From Desulfonatronospira sp. (GTDB taxonomy: Bacteria > Desulfobacterota > Desulfovibrionia > Desulfovibrionales > Desulfonatronovibrionaceae), in NCBI GenBank assembly GCA_007125075.1, contig SLDX01000046.1, forward strand, positions 1 through 33,200: a stretch of 33,200 nucleotides of DNA. Reading direction: 5' to 3'. Numbering within the stretch: position 1 is the first letter of the stretch; each line of letters opens with the position of its first letter. A program made the translations under genes and the position numbers. This document shows positions 6,030-15,493 of the stretch, piece by piece. Below the pieces are notes generated by a model that was not told the DNA's origin, made no database searches, and was given only the letters and a program-made list of their open reading frames with translations.

Positions 6030-7805
6030 CTAATGGCCTATTGCTGAACCTGAACCGCGAGGAGTGCGGACATTTTGAACCAGTTCCCGGATGTGGGCCG
6101 GAGGAGACTTGGTAAACGCGGAAACCACCACGGTCACAATGGCATTGAGCAGCATGCCTACAGTGCCGATGCCTTCCGGAACGATTCCGAAAAACCATGG
6201 GTCCATGCCCATAAACTTGGTCTGAATGATATACATCATGGTGAAGCTGATTCCGACGATCATTCCGGCTATGGCTCCTTCACGATTCACCCAGGTAGTG
6301 AATATCCCCAGTATGATTATGGGAAAAAATGAAGATGCCGCCAGGCCAAAGGCAAAAGCCACCACTTCCGCCACGAAGCCCGGAGGATTTATACCAAAAT
6401 AGCCGGCAATAAGAACAGCCAAAGCGATCATTATCCGAGCCACAAGCATGCGCTGCCTTTCCGTGGCCTGTGGGTTCAATATCCTGTAATACAGGTCATG
6501 TGATATGGATGAAGCAATAACAATCAACAGCCCTGAAGCAGTGGACAAAGCTGCAGCCAGTCCTCCTGCGGCAACCAGACCGATCATCCAGGCGGGAAGA
6601 TTGCCCATCTCCGGACTGGCCAAAACTATGATGTCCCGGTCAACATAAAGTTCGTTTTCATTGTCCGTAGGCACGTTGGCCACCAGTCGCTGGCCATGCT
6701 CTCCGCGCTCCCCGGTCAATTCCGGAGGTCCGATAAAGGGTTCTCCGGCCCGGAAACGGATTATGCCGTCTCCGGCCTTATCCACCCAGGCCACCAGTCC
6801 GGTCTGCTCCCAGTTCTTAAACCACTCAGGGGCTTCTGTATAAGGTACATCATTGATGGTATCGATCATGTTGTATCTGGCAAAGCCGGCCACTGTGGGA
6901 GCTGTGGTGTAAAGCAGAGCTATGAACAAAAGAGCCCAGAACGCGCTTATTCTGGCAGCTTTGACGCTGGGCACGGTGAAAAAGCGGATGATGACATGAG
7001 GCAGACCTGCTGTACCCACCATCAGGGCCAGGGTGATGCTGAAGACCGAAAGCATGCCCATGCCGTCAGGGTGAAAGGCCTCTGTATATCGGTGCAGACC
7101 AAGTTCTATATGGATTCCGTCAAGGGCCTGCAGAACATATTGTCCAGCCCGTTCTCCCTCTATAAGAGTAGATCCAAAACCAACCTGTGGAACAACTATT
7201 CCCGTAAGCTTCAGGGATATGGCTGCAGCAGCGAGAATAAAAGCCACGATCAGGACGCAGTACTGGGCCACCTGAGTCCAGGTGATGCCTTTCATGCCTC
7301 CAAGGGCGGCATAGAAAAAGACCACGGCCATGCCGATGACCACTCCGGTACTGACTTCAACTTCCAGAAACCGGCTGAAAACTATGCCTGCGCCGCGCAT
7401 CTGACCGGCAACATAGGTAAGCGAAATAAAGATGGCACAGATAAGAGCCACCACTCGAGCAGTATTGGAATAATACCTGTCACCGACAAAGTCCGGAACG
7501 GTGAATTTTCCGAATTTACGCAAATAAGGAGCCAGAAGCAGAGCCAGGAGCACATATCCTCCTGTCCAGCCCATGAGATAAACCGCTCCTGAATAGCCCA
7601 TAAAAGAAACCAGCCCGGCCATGGAAATAAAAGAAGCAGCACTCATCCAGTCTGCCGCTGTGGCCATCCCGTTGGCCAGCGGGGGGACCGAGGACCCGGC
7701 TACATAAAAACCCTTGGTTTCCTTGACCCTGGATCGCCAGGCAATAAAGATGTATAATGCAAATGTTAATATGACCAATATATAGGTCCAGGCCAAAATA
7801 GACAT
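6030..7805 (-). CDS. Sodium:solute symporter, VC_2705-type (acetate-permease-like)
   Basis: This 591-aa inner-membrane protein of the SSS (SLC5) family has about 13 hydrophobic helices. It opens with WTYILVILTFALYIFIAWRS and contains the family segments FYVAGSSVPPLANGMATAADWMSAASFI and GGLAAALSTASGLLIVIASS. A long hydrophilic insert around residues 315-395 (charged, GxGxR-rich) is a feature of the VC_2705 subfamily that pairs with a DUF4212 small subunit. The relative ActP transports acetate, so a monocarboxylate is a fair guess, but the substrate is not shown by the sequence. The gene lies 51 bases after the DUF4212 gene, has AGGAGGGAAGAGC before its ATG, and ends in a strong terminator. Confidence 0.92.
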   Translation of the reverse strand: MSILAWTYILVILTFALYIFIAWRSRVKETKGFYVAGSSVPPLANGMATAADWMSAASFISMAGLVSFMGYSGAVYLMGWTGGYVLLALLLAPYLRKFGKFTVPDFVGDRYYSNTARVVALICAIFISLTYVAGQMRGAGIVFSRFLEVEVSTGVVIGMAVVFFYAALGGMKGITWTQVAQYCVLIVAFILAAAAISLKLTGIVVPQVGFGSTLIEGERAGQYVLQALDGIHIELGLHRYTEAFHPDGMGMLSVFSITLALMVGTAGLPHVIIRFFTVPSVKAARISAFWALLFIALLYTTAPTVAGFARYNMIDTINDVPYTEAPEWFKNWEQTGLVAWVDKAGDGIIRFRAGEPFIGPPELTGERGEHGQRLVANVPTDNENELYVDRDIIVLASPEMGNLPAWMIGLVAAGGLAAALSTASGLLIVIASSISHDLYYRILNPQATERQRMLVARIMIALAVLIAGYFGINPPGFVAEVVAFAFGLAASSFFPIIILGIFTTWVNREGAIAGMIVGISFTMMYIIQTKFMGMDPWFFGIVPEGIGTVGMLLNAIVTVVVSAFTKSPPAHIRELVQNVRTPRGSGSAIGH

Positions 7806-7856: not shown

Positions 7857-8111
7857 TCATTGTTCATCAACTTCATATTTACGATCCAGCCTGTTCATGA
7901 GGATGCAGTAGACAAGAATAAGGATTACAAAAACATAAATGGATCCCTGCTGAGCAATCCAGAAACCCAGAGGAAAGCCGGCTATCCAGATGCTGTTCAG
8001 AGGCTGAACCAGAAAAATTCCAAGTACATAGGGTACAAAGGCCCATACAACCAGCAGGACGGCTATCAGAGTCAGATTTTTTTTCCAGTACACATCAAAG
8101 CTTTTGGACAT
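7857..8111 (-). CDS. DUF4212 symporter small subunit
   Basis: The 84-aa product has two membrane helices (about residues 14-35 and 48-70), separated by a loop with GFPLGFWIAQQGS. It matches the DUF4212 family, which nearly always precedes a VC_2705-type sodium:solute symporter and is thought to be its accessory subunit (compare YjcH beside ActP). The ATG at 8109-8111 is chosen because GGAGG lies 8 bases ahead; the upstream in-frame GTG and ATG (8118-8120, 8115-8117) overlap or touch that ribosome site. It is the first gene of the minus-strand symporter 1 operon, divergent from the first DUF294 gene. Confidence 0.92.
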   Translation of the reverse strand: MSKSFDVYWKKNLTLIAVLLVVWAFVPYVLGIFLVQPLNSIWIAGFPLGFWIAQQGSIYVFVILILVYCILMNRLDRKYEVDEQ

Positions 8112-8588
8112 CTTCATCACCTCCGTTAAAAAATATGGCGATCATTTTGCACCTTAGCCTGAACCGGAAATAATTCAGCATTGATTCAAGACAAGAATGC
8201 TTTTCATAATTTATTTGTTAATGATGAAGAAACAGCAAGTCTTCTCTTTTCTGGTCAACGGCAGTAAATTTTGGATTAAAAATATAAAAAACGACTGTAT
8301 GCATTTACAAATAATTTGTGGTCATTTATCGGATATTATCCGCCGCTTAAGGACTTGAACCAGAAGTTTATTTACTGTTCTTTTTGCTTTATGAAGGAAA
8401 AAATAAATTTAGATCGTTTAACGGCCATTATCCGCCGCTTAAGGATTTGAATCAGCGGTTTATTTTCTGTTTTTGATTTCTTTATGAAAGAGATACTTGA
8501 TTTTTAAAAAATATGTCATTCTTTAAGTTCTCGAAGATAAAGGATTTTAAAAATAAACGCCCCTGCAAAGTTTTCACCAGGAGTGAGC
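8112..8588. promoter_or_regulatory. Divergent intergenic region of module 1
   Basis: This AT-rich 477-base gap must hold the promoters for the DUF4212-symporter operon (minus) and DUF294-1 (plus). Besides the two repeat copies, no open frame with a ribosome site is seen. No sigma-54 type GG-N10-GC promoter was recognised. Confidence 0.5.
8321..8490. repeat. Imperfect direct repeat in divergent promoter region
   Basis: Two copies of about 77 bases lie 92 bases apart, at 8321-8397 and 8413-8490. The core ATTATCCGCCGCTTAAGGA is identical in both, followed by TTGAA-CAG and TTTATTT with scattered changes. They lie in the 470-base gap between the divergent DUF4212-symporter operon and DUF294-1. 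They could be paired operator or leader elements; neither is coding in any frame with a ribosome site. Confidence 0.75.
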
Positions 8589-10487
8589 ATGAAGGAAGAT
8601 GCAACAATTAATTTCCTGTCCAAAGTGAAGCCTTTTCACATCCTGCCTGATCAAGAAATTCGAAAGGCTGCACAAAATCTGATCCAAAGAAATATACTTT
8701 CTGATGTAATCTTTATTCACAAGGAAAAGACAATCTTAGACAATGTCTACATTCTTTTTTCTGGTAAGCTCGAACAATACATCCAGGAAAATGGTGAAAA
8801 AAAGCTGGTCAAGATTCTGGAAAGCAAGGATCTTTTTGGAGGTATCTCCATCCTGTTCAACAGAAATATTTCACTGTTCTCTGTAAAGGCTCTGGAACAG
8901 AGCTCTCTTTATTCTCTATCCAGAGATCTCTTCCTTTACTACTGCTCGCGCCACCCGGAATTTGTTCAATACTTCTGTTCACTTTATTTTGAACAGCTAG
9001 ATAAACATCCAAACCTGACGACTTCCACACTGGAAACTGCAGCATCCCAGAATTTTTTAAATCTGTCTTTACAGGATATTTTTTCCAGAGAAGTTGTCTC
9101 CTGCAATGAAAATATCAGTATTCAGAAAGCAGCAGGTTTAATGAGCGAAAAACAGATAAGTTCCTTACTCATTAAGGACAGTCAGGGAAAAGGCACTGGT
9201 CTGGTTACTGATAATGATCTGCGCAGGAAAGTGGTCAGCACAAATTTTCCGGTTTACAATCCCGTCGGGGATATCGCTTCCAGACCTCTGGTCACTCAGC
9301 CGGTTCAATCCCTGGTCTTTGAAGGCATTCTGCAGATGATGAAGCACAGAATAAGACACCTTGTTATAACAGACGAATCTGAAAAAGTACTTGGAATCGT
9401 CACAGACAGGGATCTGCTGCTTGCGCATGGAAGTTCTGCTGTTTTTCTGATGCAGGAAATTCAGCAGACCAAAAGCATCCATGAGCTGGAGACGAAAACA
9501 AGACAGCTTCCTGTGCTCATAAAATCCCTGCTGGACAACGGGGCTAAGGCTGGGAATATAAACAGGATCATTACTGAAGTCTCTGATACGGTTTTGAAGA
9601 AAATTATCGGCTTTGCCTTGAAAGAAGCGGGGGAACAGCCGGTTCCATTCGTCTTCATGATCATGGGCAGCGAAGGCCGCAAGGAGCAAACCTTGAAAAC
9701 GGATCAGGACAATGCTATATTATACGAGGATGTGGATGCTGACCGATCAGAGGAAATACAAAATTATTTTTTGCAGCTTGGAGACATCATCTGCACCTGG
9801 CTTGATCAGGTAGGCTATTCATACTGCCGTTTCGATATCATGGCCCAAAATCCCAAATGGTGTCAGCCTCTGAGTGTCTGGAAAAGATATTTCTGGGAGT
9901 GGATTCATAATGCTGAGCCCAAAGACCTTCTGTTTTCCAGCATTTTCTTTGATTTCAGAACCGGTTACGGCGATCGCCTGCTTATAGATGAACTGAGAAG
10001 CTATCTTTTTCAAACGCTTGGAGATTGGCAGGGTTTTTTCCGTCACCTGGCTGAGAACGCGCTGCGCTTTAAACCGCCCCTTGATATTTTCGGCAATATT
10101 GCCCTGAAATACGACAAAGACAAGAAGGGCTTCCTGGATATCAAACAGCCGATGCAGATGCTGGTCGATTTTGCCCGCATTTACGCCTTGCGGCATAAGA
10201 TTTCAGAGACCAACACCATGGACAGACTTGAAAAACTGCGCGACCTGGAAGTCCTGGACAAGCACGATCATGGGGAACTGGCCCACGCTTACAGCTTCAT
10301 GATGCATGTAAGACTGTGCCATCAGGCGGAGCTGCTGGTGGATGAGGGCAGGGATGCCGATAACCTGATCCTGCCCGGGGAGCTGACCTATATCAACCGG
10401 CAGGGACTGAAGGAGGCCTTCAAAAGGATCAGGACCGCTCAGGGCAGGATGCGCATGGATCTTACCCATGATATCGGTATAACCTGA
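8589..10487 (+). CDS. cNMP-like / CBS pair / DUF294 nucleotidyltransferase protein 1
   Basis: The 632-aa cytoplasmic protein has three parts. Residues about 10-130 form a cyclic-nucleotide-binding-type beta-roll, residues about 160-280 hold two CBS domains (LLIKDSQGKGTGLVTDNDLR and LVITDESEKVLGIVTDRDLL), and from about 300 on there is a DUF294 nucleotidyltransferase. The transferase motif is GSEGRKEQ at 360-367 with the metal-binding DQD at 372-374, followed by the DUF294 C-terminal domain with NPKWCQPLSVWKRYF. This fold is related to the GlnD uridylyltransferase, so nucleotide transfer to a protein or small molecule is likely but unproven. In the cNMP domain the usual phosphate-binding Glu and Arg are not conserved. 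The ATG at 8589 follows AGGAG by 5 bases; an in-frame GTG at 8583 overlaps that site. Confidence 0.92.
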   Translation: MKEDATINFLSKVKPFHILPDQEIRKAAQNLIQRNILSDVIFIHKEKTILDNVYILFSGKLEQYIQENGEKKLVKILESKDLFGGISILFNRNISLFSVKALEQSSLYSLSRDLFLYYCSRHPEFVQYFCSLYFEQLDKHPNLTTSTLETAASQNFLNLSLQDIFSREVVSCNENISIQKAAGLMSEKQISSLLIKDSQGKGTGLVTDNDLRRKVVSTNFPVYNPVGDIASRPLVTQPVQSLVFEGILQMMKHRIRHLVITDESEKVLGIVTDRDLLLAHGSSAVFLMQEIQQTKSIHELETKTRQLPVLIKSLLDNGAKAGNINRIITEVSDTVLKKIIGFALKEAGEQPVPFVFMIMGSEGRKEQTLKTDQDNAILYEDVDADRSEEIQNYFLQLGDIICTWLDQVGYSYCRFDIMAQNPKWCQPLSVWKRYFWEWIHNAEPKDLLFSSIFFDFRTGYGDRLLIDELRSYLFQTLGDWQGFFRHLAENALRFKPPLDIFGNIALKYDKDKKGFLDIKQPMQMLVDFARIYALRHKISETNTMDRLEKLRDLEVLDKHDHGELAHAYSFMMHVRLCHQAELLVDEGRDADNLILPGELTYINRQGLKEAFKRIRTAQGRMRMDLTHDIGIT

Positions 10488-10496
10488 TTACTGATG

Positions 10497-10519
10497 AAGG
10501 CCTTCAGGCCTTTAAGATT
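10497..10519. terminator. Hairpin between convergent DUF294-1 and symporter 2 operon
   Basis: The stem AAGGCC / GGCCTT with a TTCA loop is followed on the plus strand by TAAGATTTT. It starts 10 bases after the DUF294-1 stop and could serve both convergent units. Confidence 0.55.
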
Positions 10520-10536
10520 TTAAACAATTAATAATC

Positions 10537-10623
10537 TTATCCCAAAACTCCTGTGCCCAAAAGTATGAGCCAAAGCACAATAAGACCTATTACCACGATC
10601 AACCATATATCTTCTTTCTTCAT
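10537..10623 (-). CDS. 28-aa single-helix peptide, symporter small accessory protein
   Basis: This tiny gene encodes a charged start MKKEDIW and then one continuous hydrophobic helix (about residues 7-22) ending in GTGVLG. It has an excellent ribosome site, CGGAGG, 8 bases before the ATG, and starts 17 bases after the symporter 2 stop on the same strand, so it is the last gene of that operon. Very small one-helix peptides of this design are found next to sodium:solute symporters and are annotated as symporter small accessory proteins. By position it fills the place that the DUF4212 subunit holds in module 1. Its role in folding, stability or control of the symporter is inferred. Confidence 0.8.
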   Translation of the reverse strand: MKKEDIWLIVVIGLIVLWLILLGTGVLG

Positions 10624-10640
10624 TTTAAATACCTCCGGTA

Positions 10641-12422
10641 TCAGGTTACTTCTTCGACTACGATTTTTGATTCGGTTTCCGCCCGCCTGATCTGGTCATC
10701 GGTTATGGTGGACATTTCCGCCTTGAAACAAAGCGCCCACATCATAATCAATCCAACTATCCACCAGGCGATCTGCCAGGACCACAGAGATGGAAACCCG
10801 GCAAAAGAAAAAAGCCCGTAGTTGCCTAGAATAGCCAGCGGGCCTACAGCGAACAGATACCATAGCGGCACAACCACTTTCATGGAATTACGCCAGGTCC
10901 GTCCACTGGGGCTTGGCTTTTCCACGCTGTCCAGCCAGCTTCTGATTTCCTTTTGCCTGTCTATGGTTTCAGCGCTGTCCGTCTTTCCAATCCATCTGCA
11001 GATATAAGCCACCAGCAGTCCTGTGCCCGTACCCCAGGCAGCACTGTGTATGGTCAGGGGGTTGGGAAATACATAGTAAGTCAGCAGGACCGCTATCACC
11101 CCCGCCAGAATTCCCAGAAAAGTGCCGATGGACGGCCAGCGGAACCCCCACAGGGTGCCAAGCAATGGGACGTACATGACAAAGCCCAGTGCAGTAGCCA
11201 ATGCTCCCAGGATAACAATGGCTGCGGTGGAATACATACCCACTGCCAGAGCCAGTATGGTCAAAATGGTCACAAACAGCCGGTTGACCCAGATCTGCTC
11301 AGCGTGGCCGCCTTTTTTCTTGCGGATCTTAAGCCACCATATGTCTCTTAAGATCATGGAACCCGCAGTTCCGATGTATGGAGCCGCAGTGGAGTGCATG
11401 GCTGCGATCAAACCTATAAAAGCGATACCCAGAACAAAGGGAGGCAGGAACTTGGCCATGAGTATTGGCACCACATCCCTGTCCGAGGCTGGATCAATAA
11501 GTCCCTGCATGTCCAGAATCTGCCCGCCCAGCCCTTGAAACGCGGTAAAAAAGAACAGGGCGAAACCGACCAAAAAAGTGGACATGAATACCTGCTGCCA
11601 GGCAAAAGGTTTGGGGTTCTTATTAGCAAACTGCCACATGGTGAAAGCGGGAGAAGACTGTATGCCCATGAGAGCAAAGAGATAGGTCAGGATCATGAGC
11701 GTGGTCCAAATCTCCTCGCCCACAGTAAATTCGATCACCGAAGGTATCTGCAGGTATCTATCCGGCAGATTGGCCACATCATGGCTTAGAGCGCTCCAGC
11801 CGCCGAAATAGGCCAGTACATAAGCTCCTATCAAAAAGATCGACAAAACCAGCAGAATGAACTGGACCACTCCCACCCAGGTACTGGCCCGCAACCCTCC
11901 GGTTACAACATAGAACCAGACGATGAAGGCCATAAGAATAGCTCCCCAGGTAAAGGGGAATCCGGTAACCCAATGGAACAACGCGCCTGCCGCCATCAGC
12001 TGCACCGCGGAATAGAAGATGCCGTAAAGTACCGCGGTGAGCACCACAAGCCAGCGTATACCTTCCTTATTATAGTAGTAGGCATACATGTCTCCAGGGG
12101 TGACAAAACCGTACCTTTTGCCCATGAGCCAGGCTCTTTTGGCAAAAAAAGTTCCGGTAATGGGTATGGTCAGGACGTAAAATGAAGCAAACGCGTAAGC
12201 CAGGCCGTATTTCCAGATCAGCCCGGGATGTCCGACCGTGGTCCAGCCGCTGAAAGAAGCGGCTGTGGCGGCCATGAGAAAGGCGATCATGGGAATCTGC
12301 CTGCCGCCGATGGAATAGCCGTAAGAAGTGGTTTCTGTGAAGTACCCCCTGAGACCCCAGTAAAAGCAATAGATTATGTACAGAGCAAGAAACACCCAGA
12401 CCCAGGTAGTATCGATTTCCAT
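10641..12422 (-). CDS. Sodium:solute symporter 2 (SSS family)
   Basis: This 593-aa protein has about 13 membrane helices and is a second, clearly different SSS symporter. Recognisable segments are SYGYSIGGRQIPMIAFLMAA, then TAASFSGWTTVGHPGLIWKYG in helix 2, TGGLRASTWVGVVQFILL in helix 6 and GLIAAMHSTAAPYIGTAGS around helix 9. The last 100 residues carry a cytoplasmic linker (SWLDSVEKPSPSGRTWRNS) before the final two helices. It lacks the large insert of symporter 1 and has no DUF4212 partner. The substrate is unknown. The ATG has GGAGGG with GGGAG close behind. It is third in the operon DUF294-2, exonuclease, symporter 2, 28-aa peptide, with a 43-base gap before it. Confidence 0.92.
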   Translation of the reverse strand: MEIDTTWVWVFLALYIIYCFYWGLRGYFTETTSYGYSIGGRQIPMIAFLMAATAASFSGWTTVGHPGLIWKYGLAYAFASFYVLTIPITGTFFAKRAWLMGKRYGFVTPGDMYAYYYNKEGIRWLVVLTAVLYGIFYSAVQLMAAGALFHWVTGFPFTWGAILMAFIVWFYVVTGGLRASTWVGVVQFILLVLSIFLIGAYVLAYFGGWSALSHDVANLPDRYLQIPSVIEFTVGEEIWTTLMILTYLFALMGIQSSPAFTMWQFANKNPKPFAWQQVFMSTFLVGFALFFFTAFQGLGGQILDMQGLIDPASDRDVVPILMAKFLPPFVLGIAFIGLIAAMHSTAAPYIGTAGSMILRDIWWLKIRKKKGGHAEQIWVNRLFVTILTILALAVGMYSTAAIVILGALATALGFVMYVPLLGTLWGFRWPSIGTFLGILAGVIAVLLTYYVFPNPLTIHSAAWGTGTGLLVAYICRWIGKTDSAETIDRQKEIRSWLDSVEKPSPSGRTWRNSMKVVVPLWYLFAVGPLAILGNYGLFSFAGFPSLWSWQIAWWIVGLIMMWALCFKAEMSTITDDQIRRAETESKIVVEEVT

Positions 12423-12465: not shown

Positions 12466-13218
12466 TTACACCCCCCACCTCTTGGTGCATCCGGCCCTGC
12501 ACAGATCCTTAAGGGTCCAGACGGAGTCTTCCTGCAGCTTGTGTGCCAGAAAAAGGAAAAGATAGGCTGTCTGCAGGGAATCGGTTAAGGCGTTATGTTC
12601 TGCGAATAAAGGCAGACCATACTCCCGGCTCAGATTTCTCAGGTTGTAGGAAAATTCCATGTAGCACTCAGGTGAACCAGTCCATTGTTCTTCCTTGTAG
12701 ACCCTGGCCAGGTGCATGGTATCAATACATAGATTATAAAGTTCTCCTCCGAAGTGATTTTTCAGATCCCTGTTGATCACTTTTGTATCCAGACTGATGT
12801 TGTGACCGACTATCACAGCATTGCCGCAATATTTCAGAAATTCATCCAGTGCATGCTTAAGGGGTGCGGCTTTGCTGGCCTGAGAAGGAGTAATGCCATG
12901 GATCAGAGTGCTTATCTTGGGAACATCCCTGGTTGGACAGGCACAAAAATAAAAACTGTCATCCATATCTATACGCATTTCCCTGATGCGCACGGCACCT
13001 ATGGAAACTATTTCGTCTTTTCTGACGTTCAGGCCGGTCAGCTCGGTATCCAGGACCACAAATTCATAGTCCTTAAGGGGTCTGTCCTTGTCCAGATTGG
13101 CAAAATAATCCTTGCTCTGCGCCAGCAGGGGATGATCTGGTCTGGTGCTTTCGAAAAGTTTGAACGGCCAGGAACTTCCGGAAACCATTAATGAAGGCAA
13201 GATATTTATAAATGACAT
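12466..13218 (-). CDS. DEDDh 3'-5' exonuclease (DnaQ/Pol III epsilon-like)
   Basis: The 250-aa protein has an RNase-T/DnaQ exonuclease domain from about residue 51. Exo I is D57-T-E59 in FVVLDTELTGL, with the HGIT signature at 107-110. Exo II is VGHNISLDTKV with Asp144, and Exo III is H208-x4-D213 in EHNALTD. All DEDDh residues are present, so it should be active on DNA or RNA 3' ends with two metal ions. The N-terminal 50 residues are an extra helical region not found in the minimal epsilon subunit. It is not a replicative epsilon by context: it sits between DUF294-2 (21 bases before) and symporter 2. Similar exonucleases are often found beside DUF294 genes, so it probably works in that pathway. 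Confidence 0.92.
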   Translation of the reverse strand: MSFINILPSLMVSGSSWPFKLFESTRPDHPLLAQSKDYFANLDKDRPLKDYEFVVLDTELTGLNVRKDEIVSIGAVRIREMRIDMDDSFYFCACPTRDVPKISTLIHGITPSQASKAAPLKHALDEFLKYCGNAVIVGHNISLDTKVINRDLKNHFGGELYNLCIDTMHLARVYKEEQWTGSPECYMEFSYNLRNLSREYGLPLFAEHNALTDSLQTAYLFLFLAHKLQEDSVWTLKDLCRAGCTKRWGV

Positions 13219-13239: not shown

Positions 13240-15177
13240 TCAGGCCATGTTCAGCTTGAATGTTTCTTTGAGGAAATTCTGCAGATTGTTAATGACTGAA
13301 AAAGCTCCTTTCAAGGTCTGCTTTTCCAGATCGGTCAGTTCTGCAGGGTCAATATAATTATGAGGCGTCTCGCCAGCTTCCATCAATTTCAGCTGGTTGA
13401 CGAATCTCAGCTGCATCTGAAATTCATAGGATTCCCTGGCCCGGACAAACAGGCTGTGGGGCATATGGCCTTCGCGGTCCAGAATTTCCATCCGCTCCAG
13501 GGTGTTTGTCTCCATGATGCCATGCTTCAAAGCCATGACCCGGGCAAAGTCCCAGAAGGGGACCAGACCTCTGGCTTTAAGATCCAGCCTGTTTTTGTGC
13601 TCCCCATCCCTGTCGACAATAAAATTTTTAAAAAAACTAAGAGGAGGCTTGGTCCGAAAACAGTCCTGAGCCAGATAGCGCAGAAACATATCCTTTTCTT
13701 GAACCAGATCTTTAAGATAATTTTTGAGTTCCCGACCCAGAGCGATGTTTCCGTAGGCGGGGCGAAAATCAAAGAAAATAGTGGAGTTCAACACTTCATC
13801 CGGTTCAGGCTTGTTCACCCAGTTGGAAAAGTATTTCTTCCACATCGAGACCGGCTGACACCATTTGGGATTGGAAGCCATGTTGCCTCCATTGCACAGA
13901 GGATAGCCACACTTCACCAGATGGTTTATTGCTTCCTGGCCGAATTTTTGAAAATAAGATTCAGCAGCCTTTTTTTGCTCTTCATCCAGGGGGTCCTGAT
14001 AAACAAGGGCGTTATCCTGATCAGTGCGGAAAGTCTGTTCTTTTCGACCCTCGCTGCCCATCAGAAGCCAGCAGTATTCAACAGGAGGAGGGCCAAGCTG
14101 TTCCTGGAGCATGGTTAAAAGACGGCTCAAAATTAGATCATTAAGAATGGTGATCATCCTGGTTATGTTGTTGGCTTTGGCTCCCTCCTCAATGAGCGGA
14201 CGGACAACCAAAGGAATTTTCAGAGAGAGTTCGTATAACCTCTCAATGCGATGCTGACGCATGATCTCCTTGAAAAGGTAAATCGGCGATTCACCCTGCA
14301 ACACCAGAATATCATGGCTGGTTATCACTCCAATAACCCTGTCGCCGTCCTGAACCGCCAGATGGTGTATACGGTTGCTCATCATGTCCAGGAGTGCGTC
14401 AAAACAGAGTTGATGTGCGGAAATCTTTTTCACCGGGCTGGTCATGACTTGTTCCACCTCGGTGGAGTAGGGCAGTCCCCTGGCCACCACTTTTGATCTG
14501 ATGTCTTTGTCGGTTATTATTCCGGAGATTTTTCCGTATTCATCCTTTATGAGCAAAGATCCGATGCCCTGTTCGGACATTCTTTGAGCTGCCTGTTGAA
14601 CATTTTGAGCGAGAGTGATTATTTCCGGCTTTCGCCGGATTACTTCATTGACTTTCACTGTAAACAGGTAAAGGGAGCCTTCTGTTTTTGGAGAAAGTTT
14701 TTCCTTACGCAGTTCATCAAAAGATTTTTGAATATAATTATTGGAAAAAGACTTGAGATAATACTGGGAAAAACCAGGATGGGTCTGCAGCAGTTTTAAA
14801 AAATCTTTTTTGGGAAATAAAAAACAAAAGGTGTCTTCCACAGCTTCCACAGTCATATTTGCTCGGGTACCACGGATAATATCCAGAGCCCCGAAGACAG
14901 AACCTTCCCCCCTGAAATCCTTAAGGCTGATCTCACCTGCCTTGTCCTGCAGATATAGTTTGACCCCTCCTTTCTGAATCAGGTAGATATAATCCACATT
15001 GGATTCATCTTGCGTGAGTATTCTGGCTCCTTTGGGGTAAAAGTCTATCCTGGTGTGACGGGATAATTCAAGAAGAGTGAAGTCATCCAGATCATTGAAG
15101 GGCAGAGTCTTTTGCAGAAACTCCATTACCATGTCTGAATCCAGGGCCTGCATACCTTTTTTTTTCTGTCCAAACAT
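13240..15177 (-). CDS. cNMP-like / CBS pair / DUF294 nucleotidyltransferase protein 2
   Basis: This 645-aa protein is a paralogue of the DUF294 protein at 8589. Residues about 20-150 are a cyclic-nucleotide-binding-type domain, in which GTRANMTVEA keeps the Arg-Ala of the phosphate-binding cassette. Two CBS domains lie at about 175-300, and the DUF294 nucleotidyltransferase follows with GSEGRKEQ at 374-381, DQDN at 386-389 and NPKWCQPVSMWKKYF. The ATG at 15175-15177 has AAGGA 7 bases ahead and is preferred to an in-frame TTG 39 bases upstream. It is the first gene of a four-gene minus-strand operon with an exonuclease, a symporter and a 28-aa peptide, so it probably controls that symporter or its expression. 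Confidence 0.92.
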   Translation of the reverse strand: MFGQKKKGMQALDSDMVMEFLQKTLPFNDLDDFTLLELSRHTRIDFYPKGARILTQDESNVDYIYLIQKGGVKLYLQDKAGEISLKDFRGEGSVFGALDIIRGTRANMTVEAVEDTFCFLFPKKDFLKLLQTHPGFSQYYLKSFSNNYIQKSFDELRKEKLSPKTEGSLYLFTVKVNEVIRRKPEIITLAQNVQQAAQRMSEQGIGSLLIKDEYGKISGIITDKDIRSKVVARGLPYSTEVEQVMTSPVKKISAHQLCFDALLDMMSNRIHHLAVQDGDRVIGVITSHDILVLQGESPIYLFKEIMRQHRIERLYELSLKIPLVVRPLIEEGAKANNITRMITILNDLILSRLLTMLQEQLGPPPVEYCWLLMGSEGRKEQTFRTDQDNALVYQDPLDEEQKKAAESYFQKFGQEAINHLVKCGYPLCNGGNMASNPKWCQPVSMWKKYFSNWVNKPEPDEVLNSTIFFDFRPAYGNIALGRELKNYLKDLVQEKDMFLRYLAQDCFRTKPPLSFFKNFIVDRDGEHKNRLDLKARGLVPFWDFARVMALKHGIMETNTLERMEILDREGHMPHSLFVRARESYEFQMQLRFVNQLKLMEAGETPHNYIDPAELTDLEKQTLKGAFSVINNLQNFLKETFKLNMA

Positions 15178-15493
15178 TTTTTTGTCCTTAAAAAGAATAG
15201 GAGTTGAAAAACTCAAAAATAATTTCTTTTCTTATGGCTGATAAGATGATGCTTTTCAGGAAAACGCACTAAATTTTAGATAAGTGGTCAAAAAAGGAAT
15301 ATAAGATCTTATATACATATATTTCGATTATTGGACAAGATCATATTCCGTTTAACGATTGATTCGGCCGCTCAACCGCTTAAAAAGGCACATAAACAGT
15401 CAAGCCCCTGGATACTTTTTGTAAGTATCTGAAAATTATATAAATGTGGCCGAGAAATTACGCCGACACTCTAAGACAACCTATGAGGACGAT
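15178..15493. promoter_or_regulatory. Divergent region between DUF294-2 operon and larC
   Basis: This AT-rich 316-base gap must drive the minus-strand DUF294-2 operon and the plus-strand larC gene. It contains a perfect 16-bp palindrome (15299-15314). At 15350-15395 a stretch with GTTTAACG, GCCGC and CCGCTTAA in the same order resembles the repeat of the first module. No gene was found in it. Confidence 0.45.
15299..15314. promoter_or_regulatory. 16-bp perfect palindrome, possible operator
   Basis: The sequence ATATAAGATCTTATAT reads the same on both strands. It lies about 120 bases upstream of the DUF294-2 start and 180 bases before larC. A dimeric regulator could bind it, although AT-rich palindromes also arise by chance. 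Confidence 0.35.

Follow-up and report, generated by a model that had tools for sequence, protein, structure and literature searches.

The window (the whole stretch of DNA analysed, 33,200 nt of a Desulfonatronospira sp. contig) carries two modules built around sodium:solute symporters (SSS). In the second module the symporter gene is followed by a very small ORF with an ATG start, 28 codons and a TAA stop, called in the ORF list on the minus strand at 10623-10537. The features concerned are:

6030..7805, minus strand: module 1 symporter, VC_2705 family (TIGR03648, 822 bits)
7857..8120, minus strand: DUF4212 small subunit of module 1 (PF13937, E 4e-32; TIGR03647, 108.8 bits)
8583..10487, plus strand: convergent cNMP/CBS/DUF294 gene (ORF list, Pfam), bounding the operon on its 3' side
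10537..10623, minus strand: gene of the 28-aa single-helix peptide (MKKEDIWLIVVIGLIVLWLILLGTGVLG), stop included (ORF call; conserved at 69 of the 71 loci that could be read)
10624..10640, minus strand: 17-nt spacer TACCGGAGGTATTTAAA with the Shine-Dalgarno sequence GGAGG at 10636-10632
10641..12422, minus strand: 593-aa SSS (PF00474) sodium:solute symporter, the conserved partner (Pfam E 4.3e-29; fold of fused orthologues)
12466..13218, minus strand: DEDDh 3'-5' exonuclease-like gene in the same direction, 5' of the symporter after a 43-nt gap (PF00929, E 1.1e-25)
13240..15216, minus strand: cNMP-binding/CBS/DUF294 regulator-like gene, first of a likely four-gene operon, 21-nt gap (PF00027, PF00571, PF03445, PF10335)

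On the minus strand the cNMP/CBS/DUF294 gene is thus followed by the exonuclease-like gene, the symporter and the 28-codon ORF. Because the gaps between them are only 21, 43 and 17 nt, the four genes (15216-10537) likely form one operon. The original prediction described a small gene 17 bases past the symporter that closes this operon, with a near-ideal ribosome site and one transmembrane helix, and these points are borne out. The gap is exactly 17 nt and both ORFs are on the minus strand, GGAGG ends 8 nt 5' of the peptide ATG, and the next gene is convergent, with its end 49 nt from that of the peptide gene. The best 19-residue Kyte-Doolittle window of the peptide scores 2.88, and a single helix is predicted in both AlphaFold models of fused orthologues (see below). 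An inverted repeat (AAGGCC-TTCA-GGCCTT, 10497-10512), spotted by eye and unreported by the hairpin scan, lies between the convergent gene and the peptide gene; the plus strand is T-rich after it, and it is possibly a terminator. Genes of the cNMP/CBS/DUF294 type stand on both sides of the symporter modules, and the DEDDh exonuclease-like gene lies inside the operon of the second one.

The DUF4212 subunit expected in module 1 is also present; the protein is 87 aa long from the first GTG and 84 aa from a later ATG. DUF4212/TIGR03647 proteins accompany VC_2705-type symporters and are likewise small membrane partners of an SSS carrier, but they are about 84 aa long, are encoded 5' of their symporter and belong with another subfamily, whereas the 28-mer is encoded 3' of its symporter. 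The 28-mer does not match the DUF4212 models. The two symporters differ in their putative accessory peptides, as had been proposed.

The symporter was searched for in 84,980 species genomes, which gave 76 loci, nearly all labelled Desulfobacterota. Two of the loci (L112 and L126) carry labels that we take to be of Bacillota type. Three loci (L111, L120, L133) whose contig ends inside the symporter were left out, as were L090 and L109, where it ends 3 and 36 nt past the symporter, leaving 71 readable loci with symporters 57-90% identical. A same-strand 28-aa peptide gene is found just 3' of the symporter in 69 of these, and its length is 28 aa in all 69. The carriers, dozens of sulfate-reducing bacteria, include the cultured Desulfosarcina widdelii (L087), Desulfosarcina alkanivorans (L110) and Desulfatitalea alkaliphila (L077). 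At 67 loci it is an ATG-started ORF located 2-167 nt past the symporter. These copies were gathered by a pattern that asked for 24-36 aa, an ATG start, an acidic motif and G as the last residue (a stricter earlier pattern missed several), and two more were added by hand: L126, which has a GTG start, and L129, where the symporter frame is broken in the assembly and the peptide is present.

At the other two readable loci, L119 and L123, no adjoining peptide was found 3' of the symporter. The genome of L123 carries another symporter that does have the peptide, and that of L119 has a copy on a different contig, away from the symporter. This lone copy (L173:481-564; the genome is labelled Desulfatirhabdium) has repeat sequence 5' and a terminator-like hairpin 3'; it was viewed with 480 nt of upstream sequence, and it may reflect a binning error. 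Regardless of sequence, an ORF of 28 aa follows 69 of 70 symporters within 170 nt, versus 29 of 425 other ORFs of at least 150 aa at the same loci. Under a strict test of hydrophobicity and motif over the same distance, 58 of 70 symporters and 3 of 425 control ORFs pass. The three control passes are the tandem symporter of L088 together with L068 and L127, where the locus's own symporter precedes the peptide. Terminator-like hairpins lie 3' of the peptide at 14 of 67 loci and between symporter and peptide at 2 of 67.

The original prediction had proposed a search for one-helix peptides downstream of SSS genes in relatives, and it hung on there being a translation signal and conservation. The 69 positive loci answer the search, a Shine-Dalgarno-like site precedes all 67 ATG-started orthologues, the linkage to the symporter is near-exclusive, and among 68 copies of the gene pN is 0.31 versus a pS of 0.72, which is saturating. 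Variability in the same number of copies is 0.345, 0.258 and 0.573 at codon positions 1, 2 and 3 (order 3 > 1 > 2), and none of the 68 has frame +1 open. Against seven close relatives, nucleotide identity is 0.59-0.71 inside the ORF versus 0.15-0.46 in the next 80 nt. The peptide consensus is MKxEDxWMIxxVxFxILWTASFGWGxxG, with G25 and G28 invariant across 69 copies; one further copy (L043) has S at the end. The conserved residues do not define a significant single helix face (permutation p=0.34). Distances between peptides correlate with distances between symporters (r=0.66, n=65), as any pair of genes that move together would show. Judged from these alignments, the constraint at the ORF acts on the protein, and the 28-codon ORF is a genuine conserved gene and not a chance ORF.

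The peptide also keeps to one symporter subfamily. Across the class (348 genomes), the peptide profile (E<1e-4) and the symporter (E<=1e-60) match the same 13 genomes at 14 places each, and by coordinates all 14 adjoin. The next-best class-wide peptide match has an E-value of 0.005 and lies inside a 622-aa frame. A phylum-wide search (395 genomes) yielded four strong peptide matches outside the window's own genome, all beside the symporter. In the phylum of the L126 genome (299 genomes) the one true match is the L126 locus itself; two further matches there are long frames with no symporter nearby and were rejected. At L088, where two symporters stand in tandem, each has its own copy of the peptide. 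Several of the loci L061-L066, L083 and L124 appear to come from genomes that are also in the class counts, so the 71-locus census and the class-wide counts are not independent. The genome search can overlook places, as two symporter-bearing genomes gave no match; the class counts used closer queries.

Outside this subfamily the nearest other symporter viewed is a paralogue at L074 (L074:2940-4925), 37% identical to that of the window over most of its length. It is followed by a terminator and then by an ORF of about 83 aa whose product has hydrophobic stretches, and the 28-mer is absent. Since this paralogue is without the peptide, the general mechanism of symport does not need it. A protein search of viral contigs with the symporter gave no match. 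On plasmids only symporter relatives below 60% identity were found, and the four that were viewed (L145-L148) have no annotated 28-aa gene after the symporter. A consensus-like peptide had no match in 72,556 plasmids.

The partner symporter matches the SSF profile PF00474. For structural comparison, the stop was read through at loci where symporter and peptide are in frame, and the fused orthologues were modelled with AlphaFold. The two models (pLDDT 82.1 and 87.3) match SiaT with Z of 28.9 and 30.2 and rmsd of 3.0 and 2.9 over 460 and 465 residues, and the best VIA matches of both are SiaT, NIS, SMCT1, CHT1 and SGLT1/2. According to these models, the partner symporter has the LeuT-type SSS fold. 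Its best sequence relatives in the PDB are a bacterial choline transporter, vSGLT and SMCT1.

The substrate can be approached through the neighbouring genes, which were counted at 65 of 73 loci (in the other 8 the ORF caller dropped the symporter ORF). A gene of the acetate--CoA ligase type lies within four ORFs of the symporter, to one side or the other, at 44 of the 65 loci, directly 5' of it in 35, and a representative neighbour exceeds the AcsA cut-off. The symporter itself scores below every ActP and MctC cut-off. The excerpted text of PMC6295475 describes a haloalkaline acetate oxidiser without ActP in which an Na+/solute symporter lies next to AMP-forming acetyl-CoA synthetase, and states that acetate is a required or preferred carbon source for most cultured members of a set of genera, Desulfonatronospira among them. 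From these neighbours and that excerpt, the most likely cargo of the symporter is acetate or a similar short carboxylate, taken up with Na+. In the window's own operon the acetate--CoA ligase gene is absent beside the symporter, so this reading of the substrate rests on the relatives. Regulator-type genes also recur nearby: cNMP/CBS/DUF294 (C4) at 25 of 65 loci, sensor-exonuclease (C2) at 31 and response-regulator (C6) at 15. An exonuclease-like domain is linked to symporters, and the gene types of the window recur near orthologues (C4 and C2 as counted above, C8 at 10 of 65 loci).

Several known small partners of transporters were compared with the 28-mer. A Pfam search with 68 members of the peptide family gave no match to DUF4212, DUF485 or DUF997, and none of the 68 matches NF045580 at its 35-bit cut-off. 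The NF045580 profile is named symport_access, which we take to mean "symporter small accessory protein". Like the 28-mer, NF045580 proteins have one predicted helix and are encoded by a tiny gene beside an SSS-type symporter in the same bacterial class, where they occur in 36 of 120 genomes. In contrast to the 28-mer, which is encoded 3' of its symporter, they lie directly 5' of a 476-489-aa ORF (18 of 20 loci, 2 unclear), go with a different SSS subfamily and have a hydrophilic tail and the motif MLGxGS...CVVYGxxxWN. The best NF045580 score in the window's genome is 13.8 bits, below the cut-off and away from the peptide, and hhalign found no profile similarity between NF045580 and the 28-mer family (probability 0.2). 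In five genomes (G202, G203, G204, G209, G210) NF045580 peptides occur twice about 2 kb apart (e.g. G202:C20:47982 and 50080), which suggests tandem symporter units. At two further loci (L012 and L017), two other SSS genes have 5' of them a 37-aa ORF that encodes one helix and is preceded by a ribosome site (e.g. METYSLTAATWFWLLVPMPLVIVLSLINLVLHRRNDT); the ORFs start 144 and 147 nt ahead of where the symporter match begins. No NCBIfam model matches these ORFs, and they are possibly another unnamed accessory family.

DUF485 proteins are about 100 aa long and their gene precedes that of the symporter; the ORFs of that size seen 5' of other symporters are presumably of this family. MAP17 is eukaryotic and longer than the 28-mer, and MetS of the NSS transporter MetPS is a very small single-helix subunit. 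DUF485 (YjcH, Pflu1813) is, in the excerpted part of PMC5715377, always in an operon with the acetate symporter gene actP, near acs genes; it is a small membrane protein paired with an SSS symporter. The 28-mer has no Pfam match to it. For human SGLT2/SGLT1, members of SSS/SLC5, the available portion of PMC9616851 describes MAP17 (PDZK1IP1) as a small membrane protein bound to the SGLT2 carrier through helix M13 and required by SGLT2, a likeness to the role proposed here for the 28-mer. In PMC10903887, as far as it was available, and in abstracts, CydX, KdpF and AcrZ are small single-helix proteins that serve larger membrane complexes; these complexes are others, and no 28-mer sequence matches these proteins over the cut-off. 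CbdX gave a weak match to one peptide member (E 0.049, under the cut-off) and was rejected. Against PDB chains the peptide profile hit anoctamins only (E 8.7-9.2); the Pfam, NCBIfam and PDB matches to the peptide were weak and unrelated, and were set aside.

The most probable reading, at about 0.7, is that the ORF is a real gene whose translated product, a single-span membrane peptide, serves as a dedicated accessory subunit of the symporter encoded before it. The peptide gene would be co-transcribed with the symporter, and the peptide would be made from its own strong ribosome site, enter the membrane as one helix and pack on the symporter. There it may stabilise the carrier or tune its transport cycle, comparable to the role proposed for YjcH (DUF485) with ActP or to that of MAP17 with SGLT2. 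Gene linkage and sequence constraint are the grounds on which we infer this physical role, and with it translation, insertion, topology, binding to the symporter and an effect on transport; the substrate is deduced from the neighbouring genes of relatives. A stronger form, in which the peptide does in bacteria what MAP17 does, as an obligate beta-subunit of 28 residues in whose absence the sodium/carboxylate symporter neither folds nor transports, is doubtful.

The place of the peptide on the carrier bears on one of the alternatives. Both fused models show the peptide as a helix (with block means of 57-66 and 67-84), and the two disagree on where it lies. The first aligns it with the C-terminal helix of SGLT in 7 of 15 SGLT1/2 rows, as would be the case if the peptide supplied, as a separate chain, the last transmembrane helix that SGLT-type carriers hold in the same chain. 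In the second and better model, however, this is seen in 0 of 15 rows, and the symporter's own helix 553-580 occupies that place, which makes such a detached helix quite improbable. It is unlikely, though less so, that the peptide is translated and symporter-linked yet acts in trans as a regulator, e.g. by coupling the symporter or the state of the membrane to the cNMP/CBS/DUF294 or sensor proteins, and is not a structural subunit. The C4, C2 and C6 genes near many loci, the persistence of a symporter-free copy in the L119 genome and the failure to find a conserved single helix face are consistent with it; the invariant neighbour, however, is the symporter and not the regulators, and every tandem symporter at L088 owns a copy.

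A small membrane-active toxin or stress peptide of the type I kind, present here by accident, would share the size and hydrophobicity of the 28-mer. Against it stand the good ribosome site and the fact that, across families, the gene is tied strictly to one transporter subfamily; independent mobility is not apparent, and the search of plasmids was empty; this reading is very improbable. Least probable of all is a chance ORF or a conserved untranslated RNA or DNA element. Its small size would fit, but pN is well below pS, third codon positions vary most, the 28-aa length is fixed and frame +1 is closed throughout, and by these sequence measures this explanation is already largely refuted.

As an accessory subunit of a symporter, the 28-mer would work by a mechanism of a known kind, while the family itself appears to be new: neither Pfam nor NCBIfam has a model for it, and no published description of it was found in a search limited to open-licence papers. 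It is a 28-residue family with a strict partner that existing models miss. Should it prove to be the counterpart of MAP17, it would rank with the smallest known transporter subunits and form a new family that present annotation overlooks. The upstream DUF485, DUF4212 and NF045580 and the downstream 28-mer described here suggest that SSS symporters commonly have small partner subunits. The 28-mer and its symporter may offer a minimal bacterial system in which to ask what MAP17-like subunits do in SLC5-type carriers, and would be relevant to how sulfate reducers of soda lakes and sediments scavenge acetate.
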